In this document: positions 3,689 to 31,262 of the stretch, one piece after another | Layout of the letters: every line of letters begins with the position of its first letter | Position numbering within the stretch: position 1 is the stretch's first letter | The notes under the pieces: model-generated | Told to the model about the DNA's origin: nothing | What the model saw: the letters and a program-made list of their open reading frames with translations, nothing else | Database searches by the model: none | Assembly (NCBI RefSeq): GCF_000622245.1 | Contig: NZ_KK211417.1 | Location: 1-32,412 of the forward strand | From: Fusobacterium perfoetens ATCC 29250 | Lineage (GTDB): Bacteria > Fusobacteriota > Fusobacteriia > Fusobacteriales > Fusobacteriaceae | Direction of reading: 5' to 3' | DNA length: 32,412 bases | Translations under genes and position numbers: made by a program

Positions 3689-4474
3689 CTATTCACTCCT
3701 TTGTATTTTTTGATATGCAAATAATGCTGCTCCGATTGCTCCTGTATATTGAGTTAATGGAGATGTTTTTACTTCTTTACCTAATTCTTCAGACATAGCT
3801 TTTACTACACCACCATTTAAAGCAACACCACCTGTCATAACCAAATCGTCTTCTAACCCTACTCTTTTTGCTAATCCTCCAACTCTTCCTGCTACAGAAC
3901 GATGAATTCCTCTTATTATATCTCTTTTATCTGTTCCTTTAGCTAATTGTGATATAACTTCTGACTCAGCAAATACTGTACAAGTTGAGCTTATACTTAC
4001 ATCTTTTGTTGATTCTGCAGATAAAGTTTGTAAGTCACTAACTTTAACTTCTAGAACTTTTGCCATTACATCTAAAAATCTTCCTGTTCCAGCAGCACAC
4101 TTATCATTCATTACAAAATTTATTAATATTCCATTGGGACCAACTTTTAAAACTTTAGCATCTTGTCCCCCAATATCAATTACTGTTCTTACATTTGGAA
4201 ACAGATAATTAGCACCTTTAGCATGACAGCTCAATTCACTCATTTGATAGTCTGCCCATTCTAAAAGAGAATTACGCCCATATCCTGTAGCTAAAACACA
4301 ATCAATGTCTTCTCTTTTTAAACCAACTTTTTTAGTTACTTCTTCGATAACTCTTCCTGGTCCACTTGTACCTGCTCCTACATTAATAACGGCTTTACTG
4401 ATTATTTCTTTTCCATCTTTAAGTATTACACTTTTTGATGCAGTAGAACCTATATCAATTCCCATTGTGTACAT
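3689..4474 (-). CDS. hgdC: 2-hydroxyglutaryl-CoA dehydratase activator (ATPase)
   Basis: 261 aa, the usual length. It is an ASKHA-fold ATPase that uses ATP to drive one electron from ferredoxin or flavodoxin into HgdAB. The phosphate loop [10 protein letters not shown] (residues 5-14) and the second loop IDIGGQDAK (99-107) are present. C126 (KCAAGTGR) and C165 (STCTVFAES) match the two cysteines per subunit that hold one [4Fe-4S] cluster across the dimer. The first ATG is preceded by GGAGG at 6 nt, preferred over a second ATG three codons on. It is separated from gcdA by about 100 bp containing a strong stem-loop, so its level may differ from that of the upstream genes. Confidence 0.94.
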
Positions 4475-4526
4475 TAACTTCCTCCGTTTCCTTTTTTAAA
4501 ACTTATATTTTTTATTAAAACAATAC

Positions 4527-4561
4527 AACAGTATTTCATCTAATAAAGATGAAATACTGTT
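4527..4561 (-). promoter_or_regulatory. Stem-loop between gcdA and hgdC
   Basis: AACAGTATTTCATC and GATGAAATACTGTT make a perfect 14-bp stem with a 7-nt loop. On the transcribed (minus) strand the stem is followed by GTATTGTTTT, a weak T-tract. It may act as a partial terminator, a processing site or a 3'-end stabiliser between the gct/gcd and hgd parts of the operon. I saw no strong separate promoter downstream of it. Confidence 0.7.
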
Positions 4562-4579
4562 AAATATTAATTTAATTTT

Positions 4580-6340: not shown

Positions 6341-6381
6341 TTATTTCCTCCTAAATTTATAACATTATATTTTTAAAGAAA

Positions 6382-7182
6382 TTATTTTTCTTCTACTGGA
6401 ACTTTAATGAATGCTTGTCCTGGATCTATTTCTTCTCTTATCATTTTTATTACTTCAGGTGATGGAGCTTCTAATGGAACTGCTCTAGATACATCAATAT
6501 CAAATCCTGTATTTTCTTTTACATCTTCTGGAGAAGAAGTTGGATAATATCCTGCAAGATACATACGTTTAGTTTCTTCATCAAATTTTAATATTCCTCT
6601 ATCTGTAACAACCATTATAGGTCCTCTATTTCCTGGTAATCCTACTTTTTCACGTCCACCAGGTCCATCCATCCATCCTGGAGAAGTTATATAGTCAACT
6701 TTATCTATAAATCTTCTTTTTTCATGTTGCATCATTATTATAGTATTAGCATATGTTGCTATTCCATTAGCTCCTCCTGAACCAGTGAATCTAGTTTTTG
6801 GATGATTATAATCTCCTATTGAAGTTGAGTTAACATTTCCATATGGATCTATTTGAGCTCCTCCAATAAATGCAACTAATCTGCTTTCATCATGTAACCA
6901 TTCATTTGCTTCAAATCCTATGAAACGAATATTAGGCCATTGTACTGAACAGTGAGCCATAAATCTATTATCTCCAACACTTCTTGGTACTTCTATTGGA
7001 TTACAATCCATAAGTCCGCTTTCAACTATAATATTGCATTCAGGTGCAAATACTTTTTTAGCGACAGAAGCTCCAATTAATGGAAGTCCAGTTCCAACTA
7101 TAACTATTTGTCCATTTTTTATTTGTTTTGCAATTGTTACCGCTTGCATTTCTTTATTTGTATAATTAGTATAATCTGCCAT
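6382..7182 (-). CDS. gctB: Glutaconate CoA-transferase, subunit B
   Basis: 266 aa, close to the 265-aa Acidaminococcus fermentans subunit. With GctA it moves CoA from acetyl-CoA to (R)-2-hydroxyglutarate, supplying the dehydratase substrate. Glu54 in VESGLMD (residues 53-59) falls at the same number as the catalytic glutamate that carries CoA in the A. fermentans enzyme. The oxyanion-loop glycines GSGGANG are also present. The ATG immediately follows the gctA stop. Its ribosome site, GAGGAGG, is built from the final gctA codons (EEVK), implying tight coupling for a balanced heteromer. Confidence 0.95.
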   Translation of the reverse strand: MADYTNYTNKEMQAVTIAKQIKNGQIVIVGTGLPLIGASVAKKVFAPECNIIVESGLMDCNPIEVPRSVGDNRFMAHCSVQWPNIRFIGFEANEWLHDESRLVAFIGGAQIDPYGNVNSTSIGDYNHPKTRFTGSGGANGIATYANTIIMMQHEKRRFIDKVDYITSPGWMDGPGGREKVGLPGNRGPIMVVTDRGILKFDEETKRMYLAGYYPTSSPEDVKENTGFDIDVSRAVPLEAPSPEVIKMIREEIDPGQAFIKVPVEEK

Positions 7183-8145
7183 TTATTTTACCTCCTCAGC
7201 TTTTTTAGCATATCCTAGTCCAGGAACTATATTTAAGTTTATTAAACGAGTTGCTCCTAATTTATTTAAATAAGCTTCGTGAGTAGGTACATCATATACC
7301 CATTCTTTTAAGAATGCTTCAAAATCTTCTTGTGTTTTACTTGCTACATCATACATTTTTAAGAAAGCATTATCATAATCATAGAATCCGTAACATTGAG
7401 ATGGATGTGCACCATATGGAGCATGAACAACTGCATCAACACAGAATCCAGCTATTGAATTTTTAGTAGGATCTAAACGAATTTCTTCATTACTTACTAC
7501 TTGTTCACAAGTAACAATACAACGTTTAGCTGCTATAGCTATATCAACATCATGGAATTCATCTCCTATTATAGAACAAGTTCCATCTGGAGAAGCTTTT
7601 TGTACATGTATTATTGCTAAATCTATTTCAGGAACAGGTACTGCTACTACCTTTTCTCCTGGTTTAAATGGATTTTCAACATAAACAAACTTATCATTAG
7701 GTAATTTATCTATTGTCTCCCTTACTTCTTTTGAAATTCCCCATTTATTTACTAAATCAGTTCCCATCATCAAACGAACTGGTAAATATGGTAATCCTAA
7801 TGAAGCTGCATGTAACATTAGCATTATAACATCTTGAGAATAGTCTTCCATATTTAATTTTCCTTGCTCATACCATGCTCTAAAACGTCTAGAAACATTT
7901 GTTACTCCTGAGTTAGCTGTATAACAGTTAATATAAGCCTTTACTCTTCCAGCCCCTATTAACATATCCCAATCTCCACCTGCAGGTCCTGATTCTCCTA
8001 CAAAATCTGTAAATCCTTGTCTTAAAATTTCATAAACTAATGCATATGGTTTTCTATTTGTTGTAAATCCCCCTATAACCATATGATCTCCATTTTTGAC
8101 ATATTTTGCTACTGCGTCTTTTAAAGACATTATTTTACTTTCCAC
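7183..8145 (-). CDS. gctA: Glutaconate CoA-transferase, subunit A
   Basis: 320 aa, essentially the family length. It is the partner of GctB in the glutaconate/2-hydroxyglutarate CoA-transferase. The N-terminal HMVIGGFTTNRKPYALV and GESGPAGGDWDML segments are typical of the family-I CoA-transferase alpha fold. The start is a GTG: AAGGAGG lies 8 nt before it, while the next in-frame ATG (residue 6) would be 23 nt from that site. gctA comes 46 nt after gcdB and abuts gctB. Placing the transferase between the decarboxylase membrane subunits and gcdA puts the whole pathway in one transcription unit. Confidence 0.95.
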   Translation of the reverse strand: MESKIMSLKDAVAKYVKNGDHMVIGGFTTNRKPYALVYEILRQGFTDFVGESGPAGGDWDMLIGAGRVKAYINCYTANSGVTNVSRRFRAWYEQGKLNMEDYSQDVIMLMLHAASLGLPYLPVRLMMGTDLVNKWGISKEVRETIDKLPNDKFVYVENPFKPGEKVVAVPVPEIDLAIIHVQKASPDGTCSIIGDEFHDVDIAIAAKRCIVTCEQVVSNEEIRLDPTKNSIAGFCVDAVVHAPYGAHPSQCYGFYDYDNAFLKMYDVASKTQEDFEAFLKEWVYDVPTHEAYLNKLGATRLINLNIVPGLGYAKKAEEVK

Positions 8146-8191
8146 GTCAAAAACCTCCTTAAAGTTTTATTTTATAGTATTTTTTATAAAA

Positions 8192-9334
8192 TTATTTACC
8201 AAAAACCATCATAAAGAATCCAGCAGCAACTGCTGAACCAATAACTCCTGCAACGTTTGGTCCCATTGCATGCATTAATAAGAAGTTTGTTGGATTAGCT
8301 TTAGCTCCTTCAACTTGTGCTACTCTAGCTGCCATTGGTACTGCTGATACTCCAGCTGATCCAATAAGTGGATTTATCTTTCCTCCAGTTATTATACATA
8401 AAACTTTTCCTAATAAAACTCCACCAACAGTTGAAAAACAGAAAGCCATAAGTCCCATACCTATAATAGCTAATGTTTGAGTACGTAAGAATATAGTTCC
8501 ATTTGCTGTTGCTCCAACTGATAAACCTAATAATAAAGTTACTAAGTTACATAGTGCATTTTGTGCTGTATCAGATAAACGTGCAACAACTCCTGATTCT
8601 TTTAATAAATTACCATACATTAACATACCAATTAATGGTGCTGTTGATGGTAATAACAAAGCACAGAATAATGTAACAAAAACTGGGAAAACCACTTTTT
8701 CTACTTTTGTTACTTTTCTTAATTGTCCCATTTTTATTTTTCTTTCTTTTTCACTTGTCAAAGCTCTCATTATTGGTGGTTGAATCATTGGAATTAACGC
8801 CATATATGAATATGCAGCCACTGCTATTGGTGCTACTAATTCTGGTGCTAAATTATTAGCTATATAAATAGCTGTTGGTCCATCAGCCCCTCCAATTATT
8901 CCTATTGCTGCTGCCTCTCCTACTGTAAATAGTCCAGTTGCATTAGCTAACATAAATGCTATATAAATTCCAAATTGTGCTGCTGCTCCAAGTAATAAAC
9001 TAATTGGATTAGCAATTAATGGTCCAAAATCTGTCATGGCCCCAACACATGTAAAAATTAAACATGGAAATAAACTACTTTTTACTCCACTATATATAAT
9101 TCTTAATACTCCTGAAGAGTACCATGGCTCAGCTTCTTTCATAAGACCTGCTAATGGTAAATTTGCTAAAAACATTCCAAAAGCTATTGGTAAAAGTAAT
9201 AATGGCTCATATTTTTTTACAATAGCCATATATATTAATACAAATGAAATTAAAATCATAACAAGTTCTTGCCATGTAGCTCCAACAAATCCTGATTCTA
9301 ACATAATTCCTTTAAAAACTTCTATAAAATTCAT
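8192..9334 (-). CDS. gcdB: Glutaconyl-CoA decarboxylase, beta subunit (Na+ pump)
   Basis: 380 aa, multi-spanning membrane protein of the OadB/MmdB/GcdB family. It decarboxylates carboxybiotin and exports Na+ in the process. Hydrophobic helices run through the whole length. The conserved [13 protein letters not shown] segment is near residues 98-110, and [18 protein letters not shown] begins at 148. The family's essential aspartate lies in this GG.DGPT motif. [20 protein letters not shown] near the C-terminus is also a family hallmark. The ribosome site AAGGAGGAG lies before the ATG, 13 nt after gcdC. The Na+ gradient made here can pay for uptake by the Na+-linked symporter at 11460. Confidence 0.95.
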
Positions 9335-9347
9335 TTACAACTCCTCC

Positions 9348-9809
9348 TTATTTTAATGTAATTAGAGTTGCATCTGTATCTACTGCGTCACCTTTTTTTA
9401 CTAAGATAGTATCTACTACCCCGTCAGTAGCTGCTACAACTTCTGTTTCCATTTTCATTGCTTCCATTATTATTACTATTTGACCAGCTTTTACAGGTGT
9501 TCCTGAAGTTACTTTTACATCTAAAATTGTTCCTGGTAATGGTGCTACTACTGTTGATGCTCCTCCTGAAACTGGTGCTGCAGGTGCTGCTACAGGTTGT
9601 GGTGCTGGTGTATTGTTTACTGGTTGTGGTGCTGCTACAGGTTGTGGTGCTACTGGAGCCTGAACTTCTACTTTAACAGGTGCAGCTGCAATAGCTGGAG
9701 CTGCTATTTCCTCACGTGTCATTGGTCTATAATCTTCTACTCTCTCTAATTCTATTTCATATCTTTTTCCATTTACATTGGCAATATACTTCATTGTTTT
9801 AAAAACCAT
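9348..9809 (-). CDS. gcdC: Glutaconyl-CoA decarboxylase, gamma subunit (biotin carrier)
   Basis: 153 aa. A short N-terminal domain (MKYIANVNGKRYEIEL) is followed by an alanine/proline linker (about residues 37-85) with repeated PQPVAAP-like units, then a biotinyl domain. The biotin lysine is K119 in EAMKM. Biotin swings between GcdA and GcdB, and the flexible linker allows this. The linker is coded by imperfect tandem DNA repeats around 9560-9680, where length changes by slippage would be easy. The start is uncertain. The first ATG (9809) has AAAGG directly against it, and the second (9794, MKYIANV) lies 15 nt beyond AAAGG and fits the family N-terminus better. Confidence 0.92.
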   Translation of the reverse strand: MVFKTMKYIANVNGKRYEIELERVEDYRPMTREEIAAPAIAAAPVKVEVQAPVAPQPVAAPQPVNNTPAPQPVAAPAAPVSGGASTVVAPLPGTILDVKVTSGTPVKAGQIVIIMEAMKMETEVVAATDGVVDTILVKKGDAVDTDATLITLK

Positions 9810-9883
9810 CCTTTCATAATCTTTTCATAATCTCTTATTTTTCTTAATATTTTATTTTTTAGAATTAAATCTTAACTAAATTA

Positions 9884-10171
9884 TTATTTAATTTCTTTTA
9901 TAGACTTAATTCTATATTCTCCTCTTTTAGAACGTAATTCCTCTGAAATAGCTGATATTATTACAGCACAATGTTCTTCATCAACATTTTCTTCAACAGG
10001 TTTTACTACTTTAGGAGTTGCTTTATTTTCTCCTAATCCTAGAGAATTAAAAATTTTAGAGAAAATTACAATAGCTATAGCTAATATTGCTAACGCTGTA
10101 AAAACAACAGATAAACCTAACGCAGAAACTATTACAGATTCAAATATCCCCATAGTATTTCCAGTAAACAT
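9884..10171 (-). CDS. gcdD: Glutaconyl-CoA decarboxylase, delta subunit (OadG-like anchor)
   Basis: 95 aa. One N-terminal membrane helix (about residues 10-38, LGLSVVFTALAILAIAIVIF) is followed by a charged linker and a short cytoplasmic tail (CAVIISAISEELR...). This is the OadG-like plan: a small subunit that holds the decarboxylase complex together at the membrane. The ATG has GGGAGG 8 nt upstream. It is the first gene after the promoter at 10238-10266. The symbol follows the A. fermentans gcdABCD naming and is less certain than the family assignment. Confidence 0.85.
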   Translation of the reverse strand: MFTGNTMGIFESVIVSALGLSVVFTALAILAIAIVIFSKIFNSLGLGENKATPKVVKPVEENVDEEHCAVIISAISEELRSKRGEYRIKSIKEIK

Positions 10172-10199
10172 CTCTTACACCTCCCTTATTTTATTTTAT

Positions 10200-10216
10200 A
10201 TTCCATATTATGGAAT
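10200..10216. promoter_or_regulatory. 17-bp palindrome in the gcdD leader, probable operator
   Basis: ATTCCATATTATGGAAT is a perfect palindrome (8-bp arms, one central base). It sits about 15-31 bases after the expected start of the gcdD transcript. A bound repressor here could block elongation. The neighbouring IclR-type regulator is the obvious candidate, since TTCCA/TGGAA half-sites are common among IclR operators. The binder is inferred. Confidence 0.6.
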
Positions 10217-10237
10217 GCATTTCATTTTTACAAAATA

Positions 10238-10266
10238 ATTATAATACATTTTGTTTTTTCCGTCAA
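10238..10266 (-). promoter_or_regulatory. Sigma-70-type promoter of the gcd-gct-hgd operon
   Basis: On the minus strand there is TTGACG, a 17-base spacer, and TATAAT. This is one mismatch from the full consensus. The start point should lie near 10231, giving a leader of about 60 nt before gcdD. It is the strongest promoter-like match I found in the window, as expected for a main energy pathway. Confidence 0.85.
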
Positions 10267-10344
10267 TATATTTTATTATTTTATTTTGACTTTTTTTCAG
10301 ATAATTTTGTACTTTTTCTTTTCATATAGTTTTTTTATAGTTTC

Positions 10345-11094
10345 TTAAAAATATCCCATTTTATTAGAAACTTCTTGTGCTGCTAATTTTATTATTTTTT
10401 TTAAAAATTCTACTCTCTCCTCTGAAAAAGTTTTAGGTTTTGCTACTACAACTCCTAAAGAAGCAATTACCTGTCCTGAACTATTCCTTATAGGAGCTCC
10501 TATTCCAAAAGTTCCTTTTGCATAATCTCCTGATGATGTAGATATTCCTTCTAATCTTATTTTTTTTAATTTTTCTCTTAACTCTAATGGAGTTACTTTT
10601 AAATTACTTTTTCCTTTATCTAATACTTCTCTTATATATTTATCAATAAAGTCATCACTTTGAAAAGCTAATATAGCTTTTCTTATAGCTCCATAATGAA
10701 GATATAATTCATCTCCGAATTCCTCTACTAGTTTAAGAGTTCTTTTTCCATCTATTCTTTCTAAAACTATTCCTTTATGTTCAACTGGAATAATCAAAAA
10801 TGTATCTTCTCCCGTTTCCGTAGCAATTCTTTTTAAAACTTCATGTGCTATATTTTGCAGATGTAAATGTTTGGATGCTGATGTTCCTAAGGGAATTAAA
10901 GCCGGTCCTAATCTATATTCATGTGATTTTTCATCTTTTACCACATATAATGCCATACATAAAGTTTTTAATATTCTATGAATAGTACTTGGAGGTATAT
11001 TTAATTCACTTGAAAGTTGAGCTATTGAACAAGTATCTTCACTTTTTTTTAATAATTCTAATAATTCTATTGCTTTTAATAAACTTTGTACCAT
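10345..11094 (-). CDS. IclR-family transcriptional regulator
   Basis: 249 aa. An N-terminal winged helix-turn-helix (about residues 5-65; CSIAQLSSELNIPPSTIHRILKTL at about 22-45) is followed by an IclR ligand-binding domain with GTFGIGAPIRNSSGQVIASLGVV near the C-terminus. It lies between the fermentation operon, same strand, and the divergent gltS, so it probably controls one or both. The inducer is unknown; glutamate or a pathway acid is a reasonable guess. The start is fixed by an in-frame TAA immediately before the ATG. The Shine-Dalgarno site is unusually far away, separated by a hairpin (see 11098-11135). Confidence 0.9.
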   Translation of the reverse strand: MVQSLLKAIELLELLKKSEDTCSIAQLSSELNIPPSTIHRILKTLCMALYVVKDEKSHEYRLGPALIPLGTSASKHLHLQNIAHEVLKRIATETGEDTFLIIPVEHKGIVLERIDGKRTLKLVEEFGDELYLHYGAIRKAILAFQSDDFIDKYIREVLDKGKSNLKVTPLELREKLKKIRLEGISTSSGDYAKGTFGIGAPIRNSSGQVIASLGVVVAKPKTFSEERVEFLKKIIKLAAQEVSNKMGYF

Positions 11095-14050: not shown

Positions 14051-16555
14051 TTACTTTCTTATAAAATCTTTTGTATAAAATTTTATAAAATTTTCTCCAT
14101 CAAAATGATAATGATTCAAAAGTTTAAATATTTCATCTTGATTGTAACTTTTTAACATCGATAATCCTTTTGCTAATTCTTTTGTATTTTCTTTTAATAA
14201 TTCTAATTTCTCTTTATCTATACATCTCATTTTATCATTAGGATAAGCATCTTTTGAAATATAATTACTTGGATGAATTATTATAGGAATAGCTTCAAAT
14301 CTGTTAGATAAATTATAAGTTTCTTCAAACCAATGTATAGATCCTGATAATTGATTACAATAATTTTTTGAGATTGTTTCACTTTTTGCTTCATTTTTAC
14401 ATTCAATTACTAAATAATATTTTGGAGTTATTGCCCATAAATTATCAGGTCCCTTACCTTTATCTTTATCTGGTCTTATTGAAGGAAATCCTAATAGTTC
14501 CCCTAATTCCATTATTCCTTCTTCAAAAGAATTATAATCAGCATCATCAAAGTTTAAGTTTATTCTTATTGTATTCATTTTTATACTATATTCATTTGAA
14601 GTTAAATCTTTTAACTTTTCAATCAATAAATCTACTTGTGGTTTTGGCTCAATTATTTTCCTTTGTTTTTTTATTCCTTCAATTGGATTTACTAATAGTT
14701 TTGAATAAATGTGTGCATTATTCAATAAATTCTGTGCTTCTATAATACTTATAGAATTAAAATATTTAGCAGCTTTTTGGAGTAATAACCCTTTTAATTC
14801 TGAACTAATTGTCAAATTAGTTTCAGCAAATTTTATTATTTTTTTTACTCCTAATTCTATTTCTCCTTTTAAAACCAAGTCATAACATTCCCTTAACAAT
14901 TTTGTTTCAGAAGTTATAGCTAAAGTTCTATCATATTTTTTATCTGCTAATTCCCCTTTTAATGATTGAATCCACTCTTTATTTCTTTTTAAGCAATAAT
15001 CCATGAGTTCATTAAGAACTTCAATGGTTACTTCATTTTGGCTTTTTACTGCTTCCATTAATTGCATTGAAACTTCATACTGAGTTAATGTAGCTACTGA
15101 AAATAGTTTTTCTAATTTAAATTTATTTCTTACAATTAAATCCGTTAATAAATCTCCTAATAAAATTACTACACAATAGTCATCACTTGAACGAACACCT
15201 CTTCCCATTCCTTGTTCAATTTTTTGAATTGTATTAGCCATTGTTTCTATATTATTTCCTAAAATCCCCTCTATTAATTTTGCATATTTTCTTTCTACTT
15301 TAGGTAAATCATCAATTACTAAAATTCTACACATTTCATTAGGTAAATCTATTCCCTCATACCTATTAACTAAAACTACTAAACCAACATGCCTATTTTT
15401 TAAATCTTCTATACTTTTTTTTATATTTTCTTTTTCTACTATTAAATCTGCATACTCTTTCCATCCATTAGCTTTTTTTATAGAAGATACTAATACAATT
15501 ACATTATAATCTTTAGATTTTTCCTTTAAACTCAACTTTATTTCATCATCATTTAAATTTGGATTCATTAATTTAGGAGTTAAAATCATTCTTTCTCCTA
15601 TATCTGAACATGTTTTAGGAGTTATTGCTTCATCTAAACTTGATAAATTCAAATAACTTGATAATAAATTGTCATTAGCTAATGTAGCTGTGGTAAATAT
15701 TCTTCTTTCACATTTTTGATATGATTGTATTGTGTCTATTGGTATCTGATCAAAAGTTATTTCTATACTATTTTTGTCAATAATGCATTCATACCATTTT
15801 AAATTTTCTTTTACCAAATCAATTTTAAAAGTTACTTCTTTTTCTTCTAAACCTTTTTTCTCTCTTTCTTCTTCTTCTAATAAAAGTTTAAATACTTCAT
15901 TACATTTTTTTTGCCATATCCAAAATGGAACTACCATAGCTCCTTGTAATCTACCATATTTAAGTTCTTCATATTTTAAAGGATCTTGTTCTTTTAAGGT
16001 AGTTTCAAATTTTGAAAGTATTTTAGTATAAATTTCTCGATCTTTACTAAGTTTTATAGTAAACTGTTCTTCTAATATTGATAATATAGCATGAACATCA
16101 TCAAATAAAATTGTCCCTATCTCCCCTTCTTTGAATTTACTTTTTCCATTAAATAATTGATGTGAATTTATCACCAATATTGATTTTCCTAAATAAAAAT
16201 CAGGATCCTTGTCATTATCTGTTACCTCTATTCCTAAGTTAATAGCTTCTTTTTTTACCTGTTCTTTTAAAAAATTATTTGGAACCACATAAATTGCAGG
16301 GCCTTTTTTTTCATTTAAAGAACTTTTTAAAATTAGTAATGATACTAAAGTCTTTCCTCCCCCGGTATTCATTTTTATTATTGTATCTTTTTTGCTTTCT
16401 CTTTTTTCATACCACTCTTCTAAAACTTGAGATTGGACATCTCTTAAATATTCATATTTTTTAGGTAATGCATTAAATAATTCAGTAGGATTTATTATAG
16501 TATTCTTTGAATTTTTCTTTCCAATTGAATTAAAATTTATATTTAAAGCTACCAT
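14051..16555 (-). CDS. SF2 helicase with C-terminal PD-(D/E)XK-like nuclease domain
   Basis: 834 aa, one gene with its own promoter and terminator. The N-terminal half is an SF2 helicase: LRDVQSQVLEEW before motif I, Walker A MNTGGGKT (62-69), motif II FDDVHAI (DDVH at 151-154, where DEAH is usual), TTATLAN (motif III-like), and QKIEQGMGRGVRSSDD (motif VI). The last region resembles the Helicase_C_2 (DinG/Rad3-like) type. Near the C-terminus, PDNLW (P703-D704) and VIECK (E718, K720) have the spacing of a PD-(D/E)XK nuclease core, followed by QLSGSIHWF. The ATG has TAGGAGG upstream. A helicase-nuclease fusion in accessory DNA suggests phage or plasmid defence, but I cannot match it to a named system. 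Confidence 0.8.
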   Translation of the reverse strand: MVALNINFNSIGKKNSKNTIINPTELFNALPKKYEYLRDVQSQVLEEWYEKRESKKDTIIKMNTGGGKTLVSLLILKSSLNEKKGPAIYVVPNNFLKEQVKKEAINLGIEVTDNDKDPDFYLGKSILVINSHQLFNGKSKFKEGEIGTILFDDVHAILSILEEQFTIKLSKDREIYTKILSKFETTLKEQDPLKYEELKYGRLQGAMVVPFWIWQKKCNEVFKLLLEEEEREKKGLEEKEVTFKIDLVKENLKWYECIIDKNSIEITFDQIPIDTIQSYQKCERRIFTTATLANDNLLSSYLNLSSLDEAITPKTCSDIGERMILTPKLMNPNLNDDEIKLSLKEKSKDYNVIVLVSSIKKANGWKEYADLIVEKENIKKSIEDLKNRHVGLVVLVNRYEGIDLPNEMCRILVIDDLPKVERKYAKLIEGILGNNIETMANTIQKIEQGMGRGVRSSDDYCVVILLGDLLTDLIVRNKFKLEKLFSVATLTQYEVSMQLMEAVKSQNEVTIEVLNELMDYCLKRNKEWIQSLKGELADKKYDRTLAITSETKLLRECYDLVLKGEIELGVKKIIKFAETNLTISSELKGLLLQKAAKYFNSISIIEAQNLLNNAHIYSKLLVNPIEGIKKQRKIIEPKPQVDLLIEKLKDLTSNEYSIKMNTIRINLNFDDADYNSFEEGIMELGELLGFPSIRPDKDKGKGPDNLWAITPKYYLVIECKNEAKSETISKNYCNQLSGSIHWFEETYNLSNRFEAIPIIIHPSNYISKDAYPNDKMRCIDKEKLELLKENTKELAKGLSMLKSYNQDEIFKLLNHYHFDGENFIKFYTKDFIRK

Positions 16556-16605
16556 TCACTTTCCTCCTAAATTTTATAATTTTTATCTTAAAATTTTCAC
16601 ATATT

Positions 16606-16614
16606 ATTATATCA
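16606..16614 (-). promoter_or_regulatory. Extended -10 promoter of the helicase gene
   Basis: The minus strand reads TGATATAAT, a perfect TGN-TATAAT extended -10, about 50 nt before the helicase ATG. No clear -35 is present, and none is needed for this promoter type. Confidence 0.55.
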
Positions 16615-16652
16615 TATATTTCGATAAGAATTTCATTTTTATAATTTCTTGA

Positions 16653-17453
16653 CTATTTTGATATTTTTATTCTATAGCTTATATTTCTTCCTTCTCTTAT
16701 TTTCTCTATAAGTCCTAGTTCTAACATTTCCTTTAAATTTTTTATTACTCCACTACTTGTTAATCTTATTAGTACTTGTAATTCCTCATTTGTTATAGTT
16801 CCTTTTTCATCTAATATATCTAATATTTTTCTATAAGTTTTCTTTACTGCAACTCCATTTATTGTATAACTTATCTTTGGTAATGTTATTCTATATACTC
16901 CACCTAGTGATTCTATTGTGGGTTCTAACTTATATTCTTTGTATTCTCTAAGTATTTTCTCTATCCCTTTACCTGCTCTATTTGTAATTCCTAAATATCT
17001 AAAAATTTCCATTATCTCATTATTTCTACAAACTGATATTCCTAGAGTTAATCCTTTAGGAGAAATATTACTTGGTATCTCTCCTAAAGATATTATCTCT
17101 ATTCTATCATTATATATTTTAACTATAGTATTCCCTTTAATTATATAATCTCTATGAATAATAGCATTACATATAGCTTCTCTTATGCTTTCTATTGGAT
17201 AGCTTTTTAATTCTGATATAATCTTTTCCATTTCTTTAAACTGATGTATAAGAGAACTATCTATTTTCTGTCTATTAAAATTAATCATATCAATAATTTC
17301 TATTCCAAGTTTATTTTGGTCTGAAAAAAGTTCTCCTATTGATGTTACTTTTCCATCAGAATTTAAAAGATTAAACTTTATCATTGTATCTTCTAAAGTC
17401 AAATTTTTTTGTTTTGATTCTTCTTCTAAAAATCCAAAACTATATTCTTTCAT
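16653..17453 (-). CDS. HATPase_c_4-type ATP-binding protein, N-terminally truncated
   Basis: 266 aa. The first 40 residues match the middle of the AlbA_2/AAA_4 plus HATPase_c_4 protein family (LLNSDGKVTSIGELFSDQ). This is followed by the HATPase_c_4 signature REAICNAIIHRDY (91-103), a GLTLGISVCRNNEIMEIFRYLG segment and GITNRAGKGIEKI. Residues about 205-262 look like a winged helix (TITNEELQVLIRLTSSGVIKNLKEMLELGLIEKI). Family members are usually about 450-500 aa and start with the Schlafen-like AlbA_2 domain, which is absent. AAAAGGAG at 10 nt before the ATG suggests the short form can still be translated. It lies 52 nt after the rep-like gene and may share its transcript. Confidence 0.7.
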   Translation of the reverse strand: MKEYSFGFLEEESKQKNLTLEDTMIKFNLLNSDGKVTSIGELFSDQNKLGIEIIDMINFNRQKIDSSLIHQFKEMEKIISELKSYPIESIREAICNAIIHRDYIIKGNTIVKIYNDRIEIISLGEIPSNISPKGLTLGISVCRNNEIMEIFRYLGITNRAGKGIEKILREYKEYKLEPTIESLGGVYRITLPKISYTINGVAVKKTYRKILDILDEKGTITNEELQVLIRLTSSGVIKNLKEMLELGLIEKIREGRNISYRIKISK

Positions 17454-17505
17454 AATAAAAAATCTCCTTTTTATATTATTACTTATTATATCATTTTATT
17501 ATTAT

Positions 17506-18558
17506 TTAATCTAATAATATTGTTGTTGAAATTGTATTGTATATATTTTTTAATATCTTGTATGTATCTACAATAATTACATTATTTAAATTTTCATACT
17601 CAAATAATATTTTTCTTACTTTAGTTATAGCATTTTCTCTTGTATTAACATTATCTATTGCTAATCCTAAAGCTCTTCTTACAACTTCATAATCTAATAT
17701 CAGTCCTTGATTTTGATAAATAAATTCCGTATAATTAATTTTTCCTTGTTTTCTTCTTTCCATTAACCAATTTGCTAATTCATTTGCCCGTAAACTATAT
17801 AAACGTTCTATTTCTTTAAAATCTAAAAAATTGTCTAAAATATACTTTTTATAATTTTCAAAATAGTTTCCTAAAATATCAAGATTTTCAAATTCAAAAG
17901 TATTAAAAGTTCTTCTCAATCTAATTCTTTTTGAAACTTCCATTCTTATCCTTTGTGGTAAATCACTATATGTCTTAGTAATTTCTTCAAATAATTCAGT
18001 AGGTAGTTTACTTTCTAAGTTCAAATATTGATTGTAAATTTCTAATCTACTATTATAATTTTTTCCTGAGCAGTTATTTTTATTCGGAGAATAGATTACT
18101 ATTTCCATTTCTCTTTCTAATAAATTGATATATCCTTTTGTAGATATTCCAGATAACTTTTTATTATATACATTTGCTAAAATATAAAAAATATTTTGAT
18201 AACCTGTAAAACATTCATCTATATTCATTAGATATGTAAATGGTATATCCACTCTATTTAAAACTATACCCTGTATAATTCCATTCACTTCATATTCTCT
18301 TAAAAGATTATAAACTAAATATCTCTGTACTTCAAAACATTCACTTCTTCTAGTTATTAAAAAAGCATTAGTTCCCTTATAAAATCTAGGATAAGATATC
18401 TTAACTATAAGATTACCAGTTCTAGAAAGTTCTAACACATTACAAAAATTATATCCATAATTACTTTTTATATTTTCAATATTATAAATTAATGTATTTA
18501 TTTCATTTATATTAGTAAAAGTATTATTTAATTTTATTGCTATTTCTATTGTATCCAT
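17506..18558 (-). CDS. Putative replication initiation protein of a small replicon
   Basis: 350 aa, cytoplasmic in character, without membrane segments. The layout recalls initiators of rolling-circle plasmids and filamentous phages: an N-terminal region with ELSRTGNLIVKISYPRFYKG, then NRVDIPFTY (101-109, like the 'R-[LVI]-D' strand of Rep proteins). Further on are NSRLEIYNQ and QRIRMEVSKRIRL, which resemble the paired 'RiE..K' motifs. I cannot point to a sure nicking tyrosine, so the function is a guess from pattern. The ATG has AAAGGAGG upstream. Immediately upstream is a large nested hairpin (18594-18655) that would suit an origin. Alternative: a phage-derived DNA-binding protein. Confidence 0.5.
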   Translation of the reverse strand: MDTIEIAIKLNNTFTNINEINTLIYNIENIKSNYGYNFCNVLELSRTGNLIVKISYPRFYKGTNAFLITRRSECFEVQRYLVYNLLREYEVNGIIQGIVLNRVDIPFTYLMNIDECFTGYQNIFYILANVYNKKLSGISTKGYINLLEREMEIVIYSPNKNNCSGKNYNSRLEIYNQYLNLESKLPTELFEEITKTYSDLPQRIRMEVSKRIRLRRTFNTFEFENLDILGNYFENYKKYILDNFLDFKEIERLYSLRANELANWLMERRKQGKINYTEFIYQNQGLILDYEVVRRALGLAIDNVNTRENAITKVRKILFEYENLNNVIIVDTYKILKNIYNTISTTILLD

Positions 18559-23519: not shown

Positions 23520-24263
23520 TTATCCTAATAAAATTGATATTTTATTTGCTACTTCTTTTATTTTTTCTCCTCTTTTTTTCATTTCATTTTCTGAAACATT
23601 TCCATATAATCCAGCAATACTTATAGCTCCTATAACCTTTCCATCTTGAAATAAAGGAGCAGCCACACAAGAAATATCTTCATCTCCTTCACGATAGTCT
23701 TTTGAATAACCTCTTTCTTTAGCCTCTAATATATCTTTTTTTAATTTATATGGGTCTATTATTGTATATTTAGTTTTTGCTACTAACTTTATTCTTTGAA
23801 TATATTCTTCGATTTCTTTTTCTGTAAATGTTGATAGAATAGCTTTTCCTAATCCTGTATAATATAAAGATTTTTTACTTCCTAGAACTGCTGTTATTTT
23901 TATATTTTTTGTACTTTCTATTTTTCCAACATATAAAACATAATCGCCATCTTTAAGAGCTAAAAAAATAGTTTCATTATATTCTTCATTTAATTTTTTT
24001 AAAAATGGATTAACAACGTCTATAATTTCTCTTTTATTTTTTACAGATAAAGATAATTCTAATATTTTATTTCCTAATATATATCTTTTATTCTCTTCCG
24101 ACTCTTGATATATGTACTCTTTTTTTAATAAAGCTTTTACTATATCATCTACAGAACTTCTAGGAATTTCCAATTCTTTTGATATCTCTGAAATTGTCAT
24201 TCCTTTTTTTGAGGAAGCTATAATTTCTAAAATTTCTAGAGTTTTTAAAGTTGATTTATTCAT
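23520..24263 (-). CDS. IclR-family regulator of the sugar-acid operon
   Basis: 247 aa. A winged helix-turn-helix (ISEISKELEIPRSSVDDIVKALLKKEYIY, about residues 25-55) is followed by an IclR effector domain (YTGLGKAILSTF near 120, DISCVAAPLFQDGKVIGAISIAGL near 205-230). It is encoded inside the operon, 4 nt after the kinase, so it probably controls its own transcription through the ACGTAAATACGT palindromes upstream of the aldolase gene. The likely inducer is the sugar acid or its 2-keto-3-deoxy derivative. It differs clearly from the IclR protein at 10345. Confidence 0.9.
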   Translation of the reverse strand: MNKSTLKTLEILEIIASSKKGMTISEISKELEIPRSSVDDIVKALLKKEYIYQESEENKRYILGNKILELSLSVKNKREIIDVVNPFLKKLNEEYNETIFLALKDGDYVLYVGKIESTKNIKITAVLGSKKSLYYTGLGKAILSTFTEKEIEEYIQRIKLVAKTKYTIIDPYKLKKDILEAKERGYSKDYREGDEDISCVAAPLFQDGKVIGAISIAGLYGNVSENEMKKRGEKIKEVANKISILLG

Positions 24264-25885: not shown

Positions 25886-25901
25886 TAACGTAAATACGTT
25901 A
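25886..25901. promoter_or_regulatory. Operator-like palindrome 1 of the sugar-acid operon
   Basis: TAACGTAAATACGTTA is a perfect 16-bp palindrome between the predicted -10 and the aldolase ATG. A further half-site (AACGT) follows at 25906-25910. The same core recurs at 26025-26036. Confidence 0.7.
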
Positions 25902-25925
25902 TTATAACGTGTTTATGTTTTTTAA

Positions 25926-26016: not shown

Positions 26017-26037
26017 TTTACGTGACGTAAATACGTT
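26017..26037. promoter_or_regulatory. Operator-like palindrome 2 of the sugar-acid operon
   Basis: TTTACGTGACGTAAA (26017-26031) and ACGTAAATACGT (26025-26036) are two overlapping perfect palindromes. The second, extended to ACGTAAATACGTT, is shared exactly with site 1, 138 bases away. Paired sites on both sides of a promoter are suited to looping or cooperative repression by the operon's IclR protein. Confidence 0.7.
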
Positions 26038-26106
26038 GCTATTTTTTGTTTTTTTTATTTTAAAACTTTCTAACTTTGTATTAAAAAATTTAAATATTAT
26101 ATTAAC

Positions 26107-26141
26107 TAAAAAAAAGATAGAGATATTACTCTCTATCTTTT
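26107..26141 (-). terminator. Terminator of the WYL-regulator operon
   Basis: AAAAAAGATAGAGA and TCTCTATCTTTTTT form a stem with a 6-nt loop, followed by a T run on the minus strand. One arm overlaps the last codons of the 114-aa gene. It is A/T-symmetric and could also stop plus-strand transcription. Confidence 0.85.
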
Positions 26142-26477
26142 TTCTTCAATCCCAAATAAATTATTAAATAGTCCTTTTGGATTTTTATTTGAAAAGTCTA
26201 TTTCCTTATACTCATCTTCTTTTAAAGTTATAAACTTTATTTTCATTTCTTTATATTCATATAAATAATCATTATCTTCTTTCTTTAATTCTTTTTGAAA
26301 ATCTTCTATATTATCACTATTAATAATAAAATTTCCTATTGATAGTAATACCAGAGATTTATTTTCTTTTAACATTATAGAAGATATATCATCACATGAA
26401 TAATAGAAATGTTCTCCTAAGACCTCTACTCTTTGAATAGTGTTTTTATTATTTTTTATTAAATCCAATAATTTCAT
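26133..26477 (-). CDS. Protein of unknown function (114 aa), last gene of the WYL operon
   Basis: No family recognised. It is a soluble, charged protein: HFYYSCDDISSIMLKENKSLVLLSIGNFIINSDNIEDFQKEL suggests a compact alpha/beta fold, ending in a lysine-rich tail (KNPKGLFNNLFGIEEKR). The ATG has AAAGGA at 8 nt. It lies 33 nt after the 371-aa gene and is followed directly by the terminator. It shares the operon of the hydrolase-like and DUF697-like proteins, so a linked role is likely, but nothing in the sequence says which. Confidence 0.7.
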   Translation of the reverse strand: MKLLDLIKNNKNTIQRVEVLGEHFYYSCDDISSIMLKENKSLVLLSIGNFIINSDNIEDFQKELKKEDNDYLYEYKEMKIKFITLKEDEYKEIDFSNKNPKGLFNNLFGIEEKR

Positions 26478-26510
26478 TATTATATCCTTTATTACTTTGA
26501 TAACTATTGC

Positions 26511-27626
26511 TTAGTTTTCTAAAAGTATTTTTATTTTGTTATCTAATATTCTTATCTTTTCATCATAATATTTATCTAATTTAGAATTAACATATTCTTC
26601 TTTTAACTTTCTTATAAATGTTTCACTTTTATAAAACTTATACAAAGTTACAATAAATCCTCCTATATCTAACTTATTAAAATTTTTTGTTATAGAGGTA
26701 TATATTAAATTACTCGTAGTGGAAATCATATTTGAATATAATATTATTTTCTTTGTTCTAACCTCATATATTTTTCTATTATCTATTGTTTCATTATAAT
26801 AAAAATTATGTAACATTGTTATAATAGAACTTATTAACGAAGAAAATAAAACTCCACGAGAAATACTATAAAAATCTATTCTATATTCTTCACCTAATAA
26901 TTGTCCTGCAAATTCTGGAGAAATATTATTTAAAATAGGAACTGGTAATCCCATTTTAGTAAATGCATCACTCGAAAAATGTAACCCTTGTTTTAAAAAA
27001 GCTACAGGTAATAATAATTTATCTTCTCTTATTTGAATAAAAAAATTTTGAAATACTTCTGATATTAAAATAGGTCTTTCTATTTTCATATTTTTTATTG
27101 TATAAGATTCTAGAGAAAAGTTGTTTTTAGTTAAAGTATTAGTAATAATATTTACTGTTCCAAAGATCCACCCTAATAGTGGATCATGTCCTAAAGTAGT
27201 GTATCTATGATTAGCCCCTGATATTCCATGAGAAAATTTTTCAAATTGACTATAAAATTCTTCTTTTGTAGTTAAATACTTTGTAGCATCATATGGAACT
27301 GATCCCAATAATATTTCCGCATATCTTTCTTTTTTAGTTTTTTTACTTATTTGTTTACTAATTAAATCTGGAATTTTATCTCCTTCTGATGCATTAGAAA
27401 ATCTTAATGAGTTGTTATCTATAAAAAATTGTCTTGCTATTTGTAAAAAAACACCTAAAAATAAAAGTTTAGTATCTAGTTCATTTAATTTAGTTTTATT
27501 TTTAAATTCAATTTCATAATTTTTTTTAGTTTCTTGATATTTATTAAATTCTTTTTTTATATCTTTATCTGTAGCATTTATATTTTTTATTTTCTCTATT
27601 AATTTTTTTCTTAAGTCTTCATTCAT
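26511..27626 (-). CDS. Putative membrane-associated metal hydrolase, YdjM-like signature (371 aa)
   Basis: An N-terminal charged, partly helical part (1-50) is followed by several hydrophobic stretches (about 52-70, 150-165, 255-275). Histidines and aspartates cluster: SHG (H133), NHRYTTLGHD (H140, H147, D148) and LHFSSDAFTKMGLPVP (H216, D220). The last has the same spacing, H-x3-D-x2-T-x2-G-x-P, as I recall for the YdjM family of membrane-bound putative metal hydrolases, which also have an HR..TH motif before it. This protein is about twice the length of YdjM and the HR-to-H spacing is two residues longer, so the link is distant. It lies 20 nt after the DUF697-like gene. The substrate is unknown. 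Confidence 0.6.
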   Translation of the reverse strand: MNEDLRKKLIEKIKNINATDKDIKKEFNKYQETKKNYEIEFKNKTKLNELDTKLLFLGVFLQIARQFFIDNNSLRFSNASEGDKIPDLISKQISKKTKKERYAEILLGSVPYDATKYLTTKEEFYSQFEKFSHGISGANHRYTTLGHDPLLGWIFGTVNIITNTLTKNNFSLESYTIKNMKIERPILISEVFQNFFIQIREDKLLLPVAFLKQGLHFSSDAFTKMGLPVPILNNISPEFAGQLLGEEYRIDFYSISRGVLFSSLISSIITMLHNFYYNETIDNRKIYEVRTKKIILYSNMISTTSNLIYTSITKNFNKLDIGGFIVTLYKFYKSETFIRKLKEEYVNSKLDKYYDEKIRILDNKIKILLEN

Positions 27627-27646
27627 AATTTTTTTCCTAATATTTT

Positions 27647-28093
27647 TTATTTTTCTTCTAATATTCTTATCATTTCTTCTTTTGTTTTTTCTTCACCACT
27701 TTTATATCCATACTTATAATTAATTTCTGCTTTTCTTTTTTCTTCTCTCTCTTTTTCCTCAAAATAATTTACTACTAACCAACCAACACTTTCTGTAGCT
27801 GTAGCTGCTGTTCCAGATTTTATAACATTTCCCCAAAGTGGTATCCAACCCACTAATTGTCTTGCTATTTGTCTTCCTACCATTCCTCCTCCTACTGCTG
27901 TTAATATATTTCTCGCTGCCTGCTCTGTTATATCTCTATTATATATTTTAGCTAAAGATATAACCATTCCAACTTGAATTCCTGTTATAGAAATTATATC
28001 TCCACAAGGTACTTGAGCTAATCCTGCTCCTACTCCTCCTGCTGCTATTGCTGCTGCATGAATAACTGCATGACATTTATCTCTTCTTGACAT
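27647..28093 (-). CDS. DUF697-like small membrane protein (148 aa)
   Basis: Glycine- and alanine-rich hydrophobic segments cover residues 8-30, 35-50 and 60-110. The pattern GAGLAQVPCGDIISITGIQVGMVISLAKIYN, then AVGGGMVGRQIARQLVGWIPLWGNVI, is that of DUF697 domains, which usually follow a GTPase domain in Era-like proteins. Here the domain stands alone. The tail (112-148) is strongly charged and likely helical (EEKEREEKRKAEI). It may insert in the membrane under some condition, with the tail in the cytoplasm. The ATG has AAGGAGG at about 9 nt. It lies 39 nt after the WYL regulator. Confidence 0.75.
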   Translation of the reverse strand: MSRRDKCHAVIHAAAIAAGGVGAGLAQVPCGDIISITGIQVGMVISLAKIYNRDITEQAARNILTAVGGGMVGRQIARQLVGWIPLWGNVIKSGTAATATESVGWLVVNYFEEKEREEKRKAEINYKYGYKSGEEKTKEEMIRILEEK

Positions 28094-28132
28094 ATCTTAC
28101 TTCCTCCTTGTATAAAATAATTTATTTTTTAT

Positions 28133-29053
28133 TTATTTAATAATTTTAATATCTTTTCCTTGACTTAATATCCATTTATTTATTCCGTTTCCAAAAACTT
28201 CCACTTTTACTATATAATATCCTTCTCCATTTTCAATAATTTCTGCTGTTGGTAATTTATCTAATACTGCTTCTATTGAGTTTCCTGTATATTTAAATTT
28301 TATTCTTTGTAATTTCCCACCTGTCATAAATTGAACTCTTTTTCTAAATTCTCCTTCTTCAAATCTATCTTTATAAGGGATTGGAAAATGCTCTTCTAAT
28401 ACTCTATATTTTTTTACTCTATCTATTCTATAAATAGTAGGAAATACATCATCTTTATTTTCAAAATATTTTTCTTTATCTATTCCATCTATATGAGCTA
28501 GTACATAAAAATAATATTCAGAAAACATAATTCCTACTGGTAAAATTACTCTCTTTACTACTGATTTATCTGTTTTTTCATATTCAATTTCTATTTTTAA
28601 ATGTTTTTGTACTGCTTCGCCTATTTCCCAAAGACTTTTAAGATAACTTTTTTTATGTTGTAACTCCATATAATGAAATTTTTCATTTTCGATTAATTTA
28701 GATACTTTTAAATAACTTTCTCTAGGTACACATTGTTTCATTAGTTTATCTATTATTTCCATCATTTCTGATTTCAAAAAAGCTCTACTGTCTAATAATA
28801 TTTTACTTACTGCTAAAATTTCACTATTAGTCAATTTTTGATTATCATCATTTTTTAAAATATATCCATTAAGTTTTTCATTATAAACAATCTCTGAAAT
28901 ATTATTAGTAGTTATTAAAAAATTTCTTAAGTCACTTATATCTCTATGAATACTTCTTTCACTTACTCCATATTCCTGAGCTAATTTTTTTCTATTTATT
29001 TCTTTTCCATTTAGTAATCTTAAATAAATATCTAAAATTCTTTGATTTTTCAT
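28133..29053 (-). CDS. WYL-domain transcriptional regulator
   Basis: 306 aa. An N-terminal HTH (RKKLAQEYGVSERSIHRDISDLRNFL, about residues 22-48) is of the DeoR/HTH_11 type. A WYL domain follows (KHLKIEIEYEKTD...VILPVGIMFSEYYFYVLAHIDG, about 153-195) with the WCX-type C-terminal extension. Members sense ligands, often nucleic acids or nucleotides, and many control defence operons. It is the first gene of a four-gene unit. A 15-bp palindrome overlaps the -35 of its own promoter, indicating autoregulation. GGAGG lies 4 nt before the ATG. It is clearly the operon's regulator, but its signal is unknown. Confidence 0.9.
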   Translation of the reverse strand: MKNQRILDIYLRLLNGKEINRKKLAQEYGVSERSIHRDISDLRNFLITTNNISEIVYNEKLNGYILKNDDNQKLTNSEILAVSKILLDSRAFLKSEMMEIIDKLMKQCVPRESYLKVSKLIENEKFHYMELQHKKSYLKSLWEIGEAVQKHLKIEIEYEKTDKSVVKRVILPVGIMFSEYYFYVLAHIDGIDKEKYFENKDDVFPTIYRIDRVKKYRVLEEHFPIPYKDRFEEGEFRKRVQFMTGGKLQRIKFKYTGNSIEAVLDKLPTAEIIENGEGYYIVKVEVFGNGINKWILSQGKDIKIIK

Positions 29054-29089
29054 TTTTCCTCCATTATTTAATTACTTAAGATTTATCTA

Positions 29090-29127
29090 AATATATTTTA
29101 TATTATTGAGATTGACAAAAATTGTCA
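29090..29127 (-). promoter_or_regulatory. Promoter and overlapping palindromic operator of the WYL operon
   Basis: On the minus strand there is TTGTCA, a 17-base spacer, and TATATT (-10 at 29090-29095, -35 at 29113-29118). The -35 is one arm of the perfect palindrome TGACAA-TTT-TTGTCA (29113-29127). A protein bound there would exclude RNA polymerase. The WYL protein is the natural candidate. Confidence 0.65.
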
Positions 29128-29206: not shown

Positions 29207-29548
29207 TTATTCTTTTTCATTTCCTTTAGCTATTCTTAAACCTAATTCAACTATTTCTTCATTTGTTATTTCTTTCTTTTTATTATTTAAGTCTAGGAAT
29301 ACAAGCATTGCAAGTATTCCTATTCTTTTATTCCCATCTAAAAATGGATGATTTCTTATAAGACTATTGCATAATTGATTAGCTTTATCATCTAATGTTT
29401 TATATAAATCTTCTCTACCAAAACTTATAAATGGAGAATTAATAGCTGTTTCTAAAAGTCCTATATCTCTTATTCCTCTTATACCACCAGTTTTATCTAT
29501 TATTTTTTCATGTAAGAATATAATATCTTCTATTGACAACTTAATCAC
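29207..29548 (-). CDS. doc: Death-on-curing (Doc/Fic) toxin
   Basis: 113 aa, somewhat shorter at the C-terminus than the 126-aa P1 Doc. The Fic motif HPFLDGNKR (H67-R75) is complete, and GGIRGIRDIGLLETAI (21-36) is the conserved N-terminal region of the family. Doc proteins phosphorylate EF-Tu and stop translation. The start is GTG, sharing its G with the TAG stop of the 31-aa partner gene, with AAGGAG at 8 nt. This overlap means toxin translation depends on the partner. The C-terminal end (GLRIAKGNEKE) looks normal. Confidence 0.9.
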   Translation of the reverse strand: MIKLSIEDIIFLHEKIIDKTGGIRGIRDIGLLETAINSPFISFGREDLYKTLDDKANQLCNSLIRNHPFLDGNKRIGILAMLVFLDLNNKKKEITNEEIVELGLRIAKGNEKE

Positions 29549-30257: not shown

Positions 30258-30572
30258 TTAGAAACTATGTTTTTTCAATGATTCTACTGTTCCTTGAAAT
30301 AGTGTTTTCTCTCCTAAAAGTTTATTATCACAATCTAGGAAGAATACTTTAAATTCTTCATTATTCTTTATTCCCATATTAATATTTAAAAATTCTATTA
30401 ATTCTCGCATTGTTCTTATTCTTGTGAAGTCTTTATTTTTTAATTTTTCTTTTCCTATGATATATATAAGATTTTTTAGTTCTTCTATTTCCTCATTTAT
30501 TTCGTAGCTTTTCATCTTATAAACTACTTCATCTACATCTTTACATTTTAAAAATTTTAATATCTTTTCCAT
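30258..30572 (-). pseudogene. Truncated RadC-like (JAB/MPN) protein
   Basis: 104 aa. MRELIEFLNINMGIKNNEEFKVFFLDCDNKLLGEKTLFQGTV (about residues 55-96) matches the start of the RadC JAB domain ('E.F.V.FLD..N.LI..E.LF.GTV'). The frame then ends with ESLKKHSF and a stop. The later metal-binding HxHPSGDP.PS part is missing, so it cannot be an active metalloprotease-fold enzyme. GGAGG lies before the ATG, and the remaining protein may still be made. RadC-like genes are common passengers on plasmids and integrative elements, in keeping with the integrase fragment nearby. Confidence 0.75.
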
Positions 30573-30946: not shown

Positions 30947-31262
30947 ACATCCTAAGATATTACCTTTAATTAAAAATAGATACAATAAAAATAATAAATA
31001 TCTAATTCTTAACTTCAAAGGTCAAAAAATGAAGTATGATAATTACTATAGAGAAAAGTTTCTTCCTATCATGGAACAATTAAACATGAAACATAGACCA
31101 CACGATTGTCGTCATACTTTTGCTACACTTCTTAGTAATGCCAATGCTAATGCTACTGCTATTAAGAAAATGATAGGACATGAAAGCTATATTACTACTG
31201 AAAAAATATATACTCATAAGGATATAGAAGAACTTAGAAAAAATGTTGAACTAATAAAATAA
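30942..31262 (+). pseudogene. C-terminal fragment of a tyrosine-family integrase
   Basis: The plus-strand frame reads PIHPKILPLIKNRYNKNNKYLI then LNFKGQKMKYDNYYREKF, continuing with HRPHDCRHTFATLL, IKKMIGHESY and TTEKIYTHKDIEELR to a stop. The second half of the catalytic set is present: H-x2-R (HDCR), GH, and the nucleophile Y in IYTH. The first arginine and the N-terminal arm- and core-binding domains are absent, and the open frame ends at a stop near 30828. The most evident start, the ATG at 31029, has no ribosome site. Neighbouring genes were therefore probably once part of an integrated element whose integrase has been lost. Confidence 0.8.

Follow-up and report, generated by a model that had tools for sequence, protein, structure and literature searches.

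The anti-phage system Bunzi has been described (Millman et al., 2022, cited through PMC10952713); a TerB domain (PF05099) is listed for it (PMC10952713), and a 2026 review counts its way of working among the unknowns (PMC12926258). We suggest that a four-gene operon of Fusobacterium perfoetens ATCC 29250 belongs to the Bunzi (BnzA/BnzB) superfamily. The operon lies on contig NZ_KK211417.1, within the stretch of 32,412 nucleotides (nt; positions 1 to 32,412, forward strand) that we call the window, and we read it, at a probability of about 0.62, as a membrane-anchored immune unit switched by a WYL-domain regulator.

The described WYL proteins closest to this regulator fall on two sides. CapW, of CBASS, and BrxR, of BREX, resemble it in being helix-turn-helix (HTH) plus WYL proteins encoded first in a defence operon, with a palindrome at the promoter. 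CapW sites overlap the -10 element and the BrxR site lies downstream of its promoter, whereas in the class to which the window operon belongs 12-13 nt separate the end of the palindrome from the -10 downstream of it, and there is no -35 box. PafBC and SiwR, the WYL activators of the mycobacterial genotoxic-stress response, share with this class a site between -35 and -10 and a conserved arginine in the WYL domain. The PafBC motif is tTGTCRgtg-N8-TAnnnT, in which, as here, TGTC stands about 12 nt before TAnnnT without a -35 box; unlike PafBC, which is a heterodimer of the Actinomycetota, the regulator considered here is a single WYL protein with a symmetric palindrome, found in other phyla. Single-stranded DNA activates PafBC, which places itself between the promoter and the domain of sigma that would otherwise touch the -35 (PMC11804915); SiwR, also an activator, has its palindromic site upstream of the -10 (PMC10693628).

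The features of the operon, read in the direction of transcription, are these:

29095 to 29126, minus strand: composite promoter of the WYL gene, GACA-N5-TGTC-N13-TAAAAT, 41 nt before the WYL start codon
28133 to 29053, minus strand: WYL-domain transcription regulator, 306 amino acids (aa), HTH_11 plus WYL, of a clade found beside BnzB-like genes
27647 to 28093, minus strand: DUF697-like membrane partner, 148 aa, homologous to BnzB-adjacent partners at two other loci (L055 and L052)
27671 to 27709, minus strand: degenerate candidate docking segment GYKSGEEKTKEEM, picked out by eye
26511 to 27626, minus strand: BnzB-like protein, 371 aa, matching the C-terminal half of the PADLOC BnzB profile
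26937 to 27290, minus strand: conserved core of the BnzB-like protein, from conservation over 64 proteins
26133 to 26477, minus strand: accessory protein, 114 aa, with relatives only in Fusobacteriota and there without BnzB-like neighbours
26108 to 26145, minus strand: terminator hairpin at the operon end, minimum free energy -19.2 kcal/mol, z -4.5

The original prediction, made from the letters of the window, had seen here four same-strand genes with one promoter, an operator overlapping it and one terminator. The layout is borne out: all four open reading frames lie on the minus strand with gaps of 39, 20 and 33 nt, and the single terminator corresponds to an A/T-extended hairpin 3' of the 114-aa gene that folds far better than its shuffles.

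The BnzB-like protein and its partners

The 371-aa protein matches the PADLOC BnzB profile (PDLC03834) with an E-value of 1.8e-44 over profile positions 225-500 of 504, and by this match it is a diverged BnzB homologue, the only BnzB-like protein encoded in the genome. Neither it nor the 114-aa protein has a family in Pfam or NCBIfam. The resemblance to Bunzi comprises a protein that covers the C-terminal half of BnzB and a membrane-type partner encoded directly beside it, together with partners in related loci that match segments of BnzA and a defence-island setting; the operon differs from Bunzi in that its BnzB-like protein has no match to the N-terminal 224 profile positions and in that it adds a WYL regulator and the 114-aa accessory.

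Over 64 BnzB-like proteins, D113, G146, H147, D148, P149, G152, F155, G156, H216, D220 and P230 are invariant, and H140 and R141 are nearly so (at least 90%). The metal-hydrolase signature proposed in the original prediction therefore stands as a near-invariant set of His and Asp residues; as an assignment to a family it does not, no known hydrolase family having been matched. The BnzB-like protein may be a hydrolase. We note a likeness between its H-x3-D-x2-T-x2-G-[LI]-P stretch and membrane hydrolases of the YdjM type. Kinship with YdjM (PF04307) was considered and rejected, there being no Pfam match and an hhalign probability below 1%, with a score no better than for unrelated families; both hhalign runs align the H-x3-D stretch, yet the comparison is not significant. 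The AlphaFold2 model of the protein is confident (predicted local distance difference test, pLDDT, 85.7) and largely helical, and hydropathy reveals no clear transmembrane segment. A fold search with this model against the PDB and viral models returned nothing at E <0.001 and middling Z-scores at most, to helical proteins, by which a new fold is not shown.

BnzB-like genes mostly adjoin a partner gene of a recurring type, a pairing that holds in about 90 loci from several phyla. Hairpin proteins rich in Gly and Ala (c1) are one such type; the others are coiled-coil proteins, some of them with a membrane head, DUF697 proteins, dynamin-like GTPases, and large proteins that contain an EF-Tu domain III (as on plasmid pNP40) or a beta-helix. 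Residues 293-408 of BnzA are matched by the c1 hairpin protein, and the BnzA N-terminus by the DUF697 protein of L052 and by a protein of another locus, L082; we therefore take these partners to be fragments or relatives of BnzA. At least eight changes of classified partner type and 18 of WYL presence are needed on a tree of 90 BnzB-like proteins, which amounts to repeated exchange.

The partner in the window scores 31.1 bits against DUF697 (PF05128), above the Pfam gathering cut-off of 27.7; it departs from the usual DUF697 layout in carrying no GTPase domain and in being coupled to a BnzB-like gene. It is 40% identical to the BnzB-adjacent homologue of a Pelotomaculum (L055) and 47% identical to the DUF697 part of the L052 protein, which is fused there to the BnzA N-terminal domain. 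DUF697 proteins adjoin BnzB-like genes in L055, L052, L024 and L025, and weaker homologues of the window protein are encoded beside the BnzB gene in three other Fusobacteriota genomes, so that the pair is not restricted to close relatives. The claim that the lone DUF697 protein pairs with the hydrolase-like one is accordingly upheld, the pair being kept in the Bacillota and in other Fusobacteriota; the WYL, DUF697 and BnzB-like genes were found neither in close relatives only nor as a housekeeping pair. On homology and gene order, the DUF697 protein occupies the place of BnzA at this operon; it has no direct match to the BnzA profile. We also observed a row of DUF697 genes, two stand-alone and one fused to a GTPase, in another genome of the Fusobacteriota (L189, G070:C36) that has no BnzB-like gene.

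Partners from unrelated clusters (coiled-coil/DUF697, EF-Tu domain III/beta-helix, and dynamin) have a motif in common. Searched for as G[YMIFVHLT]xx[AGC][SA]xx[YF][EK]x[KRE], it was found in 23 of 135 proteins encoded immediately beside BnzB-like genes and in none of 1127 other locus proteins; its canonical form is G[YM]xx[AG][SA]xx[YF]ExK[LF]. The strength of the motif lies in its being common to unrelated partners, and it may serve to dock them to the BnzB-like protein. To the eye, the candidate segment in the window resembles GVYEGMSKSEEEI from the L026 partner, L026 being a close relative.

The WYL regulator and its composite promoter

The 306-aa regulator scores 34 bits against PF08279 (cut-off 25) and 28.3 bits against PF13280 (cut-off 21.8), and its WYL arginine stretch, YRIDR, occupies residues 208-212; a phmmer comparison with PDB sequences gave no match. 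It is 38% identical over its full length to the WYL protein of a BnzB-like operon of Desulfosporosinus. WYL genes number 27 of 486 within three genes of a BnzB-like gene as against 4 of 469 further out, and the sampled genomes hold 0 to 12 WYL genes each. These alignments and neighbourhoods show a WYL clade that travels with BnzB-like genes across phyla, to which the window protein can be assigned.

The operator that had been claimed to overlap the promoter corresponds to a palindrome, TGACAA-N3-TTGTCA (29113-29127), which does overlap it, is the sole copy in the window and has no counterpart in 100 shuffles. The promoter that had been claimed, TTGTCA-17-TATATT at 29118-29090, is also present, and is an alternative reading of the window promoter to the composite GACA-N5-TGTC-N13-TAAAAT, in which no -35 consensus stands at the usual distance from TAAAAT. 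A pattern-free search for palindromes gave mostly chance results, and GACA-N5-TGTC emerged only by comparing loci: it lies within about 200 nt of 7 of the 21 members of the WYL clade, where 0.02 would be expected. The composite GACA-N5-TGTC-N12/13-TAnnnT has 25 sites in 1.09 Mb of loci as against 0-3 in shuffles, and exactly one match in the whole 2.1-Mb genome that holds the window, at the operon promoter. The palindrome is present at 11 of 99 promoters of BnzB-like/WYL operons and at 9 of 533 others (8 of 94 versus 9 of 533, p 0.0015, without the three loci that had suggested the pattern), and the nine background palindromes are mostly the same or nearby sites viewed from a divergent gene. 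As judged from sequence, the composite promoter is common to these operons across phyla. Canonical -35 boxes were also looked for at the composite sites and rejected (mean score 2.05 of 6, versus 2.39 of 6 at random TANNAT).

One Treponema locus (L049) has three further composite promoters, at 10972, 12197 and 14736, downstream of its BnzB-like operon and near NYN-nuclease-like and AbiE-like genes; they possibly belong to a wider WYL regulon.

Distribution and neighbourhood

The distribution of BnzB-like genes in the Fusobacteriota is accessory and patchy: 6 of 98 genomes have one, namely that of the window and five of one genus in another family, and none of the six further genomes from the genus of the window has it. 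An empty-site comparison within the genus found the flanking gene absent there. A scan of 84,980 species genomes yielded 80 BnzB-like loci, by their record titles from the Bacillota, Spirochaetota, Bacteroidota, Desulfobacterota and Pseudomonadota among others, with the nearest relatives about 40% identical, and further loci were found on plasmids, in phages and on prophage-like contigs. Among viral contigs a single-protein scan found nothing and an alignment-based scan found 24 BnzB-like loci. A phage-like contig (L161) carries a hairpin and BnzB-like pair at 4180-6047, between DNA methylase and terminase genes. Plasmid pNP40 (L014) carries an operon of WYL, BnzB-like and EF-Tu-domain-III genes at 5070-8657, and plasmid pLLI11B (L015) carries WYL and BnzB-like genes ahead of a full BnzA-BnzB pair at 4070-10490. 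The first of these plasmids is a lactococcal one known for phage resistance.

The defence systems near BnzB-like genes include CRISPR, BREX, AbiE, Qat and Juk, with matches to Cas3, Cas5, QatB, PglZ, AbiEii and JukA at E <1e-20 among 148 sampled proteins around these genes. Control regions from the same genomes gave mainly helicase look-alikes among the matches shown, in a comparison that is qualitative; the control set partly overlapped a BnzB-like locus (L207 with L100), and because of this overlap the BnzB and QatB matches in the control are not true control matches. The proposal of a defence-type unit governed by a WYL protein is supported.

For the 114-aa protein the libraries gave no convincing match and the plasmids no match at all. 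Its clear relatives are in two Fusobacteriota genomes, in one of them at a contig edge and in the other (L114, 8537-11043) as a tandem pair beside a Gly-rich hairpin protein of 615 aa that matches LeoB weakly. The gene is absent from every other BnzB-like locus and is most likely a lineage-specific accessory.

Directly upstream of the operon is a Doc/Fic death-on-curing toxin gene (29207-29548, minus strand, GTG start), so that of the neighbouring toxin-antitoxin pair that had been described the toxin member is confirmed. Remnants of an integrated element follow, a RadC fragment at 30258-30572 and a C-terminal integrase fragment at 31029-31262. Elsewhere in the window, 834-aa helicase-like, 266-aa and 350-aa proteins encoded at 14051-18558 (minus strand) look like products of mobile-element or defence genes, and two related palindromes, at 25887-25919 (AACGTAAATACGTT...) and 26022-26039 (ACGTAAATACGT), lie upstream of a KDPG-aldolase-like/TRAP operon and are perhaps the operator of an IclR-type regulator encoded at 23520-24263.

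A proposed mechanism and its alternatives

As far as gene content can tell, the operon works like Bunzi. We propose that phage infection or DNA damage would create a ligand for the WYL protein, most likely single-stranded nucleic acid, and that the liganded dimer on GACA-N5-TGTC would replace the missing -35 contact, much as PafBC does, and turn the operon on. The DUF697 protein would insert in the inner membrane and hold the BnzB-like protein there through its C-terminal helix, and the His/Asp centre of the latter would damage the membrane or a membrane-linked substrate and stop the infected cell, with the 114-aa protein as an accessory and perhaps a brake. Activation is slightly favoured over relief of repression, because the layout is that of PafBC and SiwR and the CapW and BrxR sites lie at or downstream of the -10.

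Several observations weigh against this proposal. BnzA (PDLC03833) is not matched anywhere in the genome at an E-value of 1, nor is TerB (PF05099) in the four operon proteins, and because both were tested and not found we do not file the operon as canonical Bunzi; the partner in L026 has a weak TerB match (0.018), below the cut-off. The DUF697 protein is marginal in hydropathy, with one segment at 1.64, its model is of low confidence (pLDDT 68.8), and it lacks the canonical docking motif, GYKSGEEKTKEEM not matching the pattern. Enzymatic activity of the BnzB-like protein is argued from conserved residues only, the protein matching neither a solved fold nor a hydrolase family. We wrote both patterns, that of the promoter and that for docking, after inspecting the loci, the exact promoter pattern gives no site in 13 of the 21 WYL operons, and CapW and BrxR, the best-studied WYL proteins of defence, are repressors.

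It is to this last point that the strongest alternative attaches, namely that the same Bunzi-like system is run by a repressor of the CapW/BrxR type, whose palindrome over the -35 would block RNA polymerase until a ligand releases it. CapW and BrxR, both HTH-WYL-WCX homodimers, exert repression from palindromes that overlap or adjoin the promoter, the WYL gene heads its own operon as autoregulated repressors do, and TTGTCA in the window could pass for a -35 box. However, all that the relatives conserve of this promoter is the palindrome and, 12-13 nt beyond TGTC, a -10; where a -35 would normally lie, hexamers score no higher than random, and CapW sites overlap the -10 where the composite-promoter palindromes do not; we put the chances of a repressor somewhat short of even. 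Toxin-antitoxin logic, with the DUF697 hairpin or the BnzB-like protein as a membrane toxin that its partner or the 114-aa protein neutralises until phage removes the neutraliser, would fit the tight pairing of two genes in distant species and the occurrence of the 114-aa family beside the 615-aa hairpin protein of another Fusobacteriota genome. Nevertheless, the repeated swaps for unrelated partners would be unusual for a specific antitoxin, and the 114-aa protein is missing from all other BnzB-like loci, and we regard this logic as unlikely. Slightly less likely again is an envelope or superinfection-exclusion module, whose pair would remodel the membrane and keep incoming DNA out and not act as abortive immunity: BnzB-like pairs do occur in prophage and plasmid genomes, one of them on pNP40, but the His/Asp conservation suggests catalysis. 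As to the wholly undescribed four-gene system of the original prediction, the exact gene set was found nowhere else. Yet the homology of the 371-aa protein to the BnzB of a published system, together with the BnzA-linked partners, ties the operon to Bunzi, and the four genes do not hold as a unit, since the 114-aa gene, an accessory, does not accompany BnzB-like genes at other loci; this view we consider very improbable.

The membrane-anchored, WYL-switched immune unit of the Bunzi superfamily that we prefer may exemplify something wider. A tentative extension, which we think less likely than not, is that BnzB-like systems form a cross-phylum class, with a hydrolase-like core, membrane- or GTPase-type partners swapped by way of the docking motif, and a PafBC-like WYL activator acting at a promoter without a -35, GACA-N5-TGTC-N12/13-TAnnnT; WYL proteins would then serve phage defence through sigma adaptation outside the Actinomycetota. 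What is new here is the cross-phylum composite promoter, the motif shared by partners and the exchangeability of the partners themselves. The locus and its relatives reduce Bunzi to a core of a BnzB-like protein and a membrane partner, make specific residues, a motif of the partners and a promoter available for testing, and tie control of the Bunzi type to WYL proteins. If the promoter works in the way that its layout suggests, WYL-dependent sigma adaptation would be a means of switching on defence that is widespread beyond the Actinomycetota.

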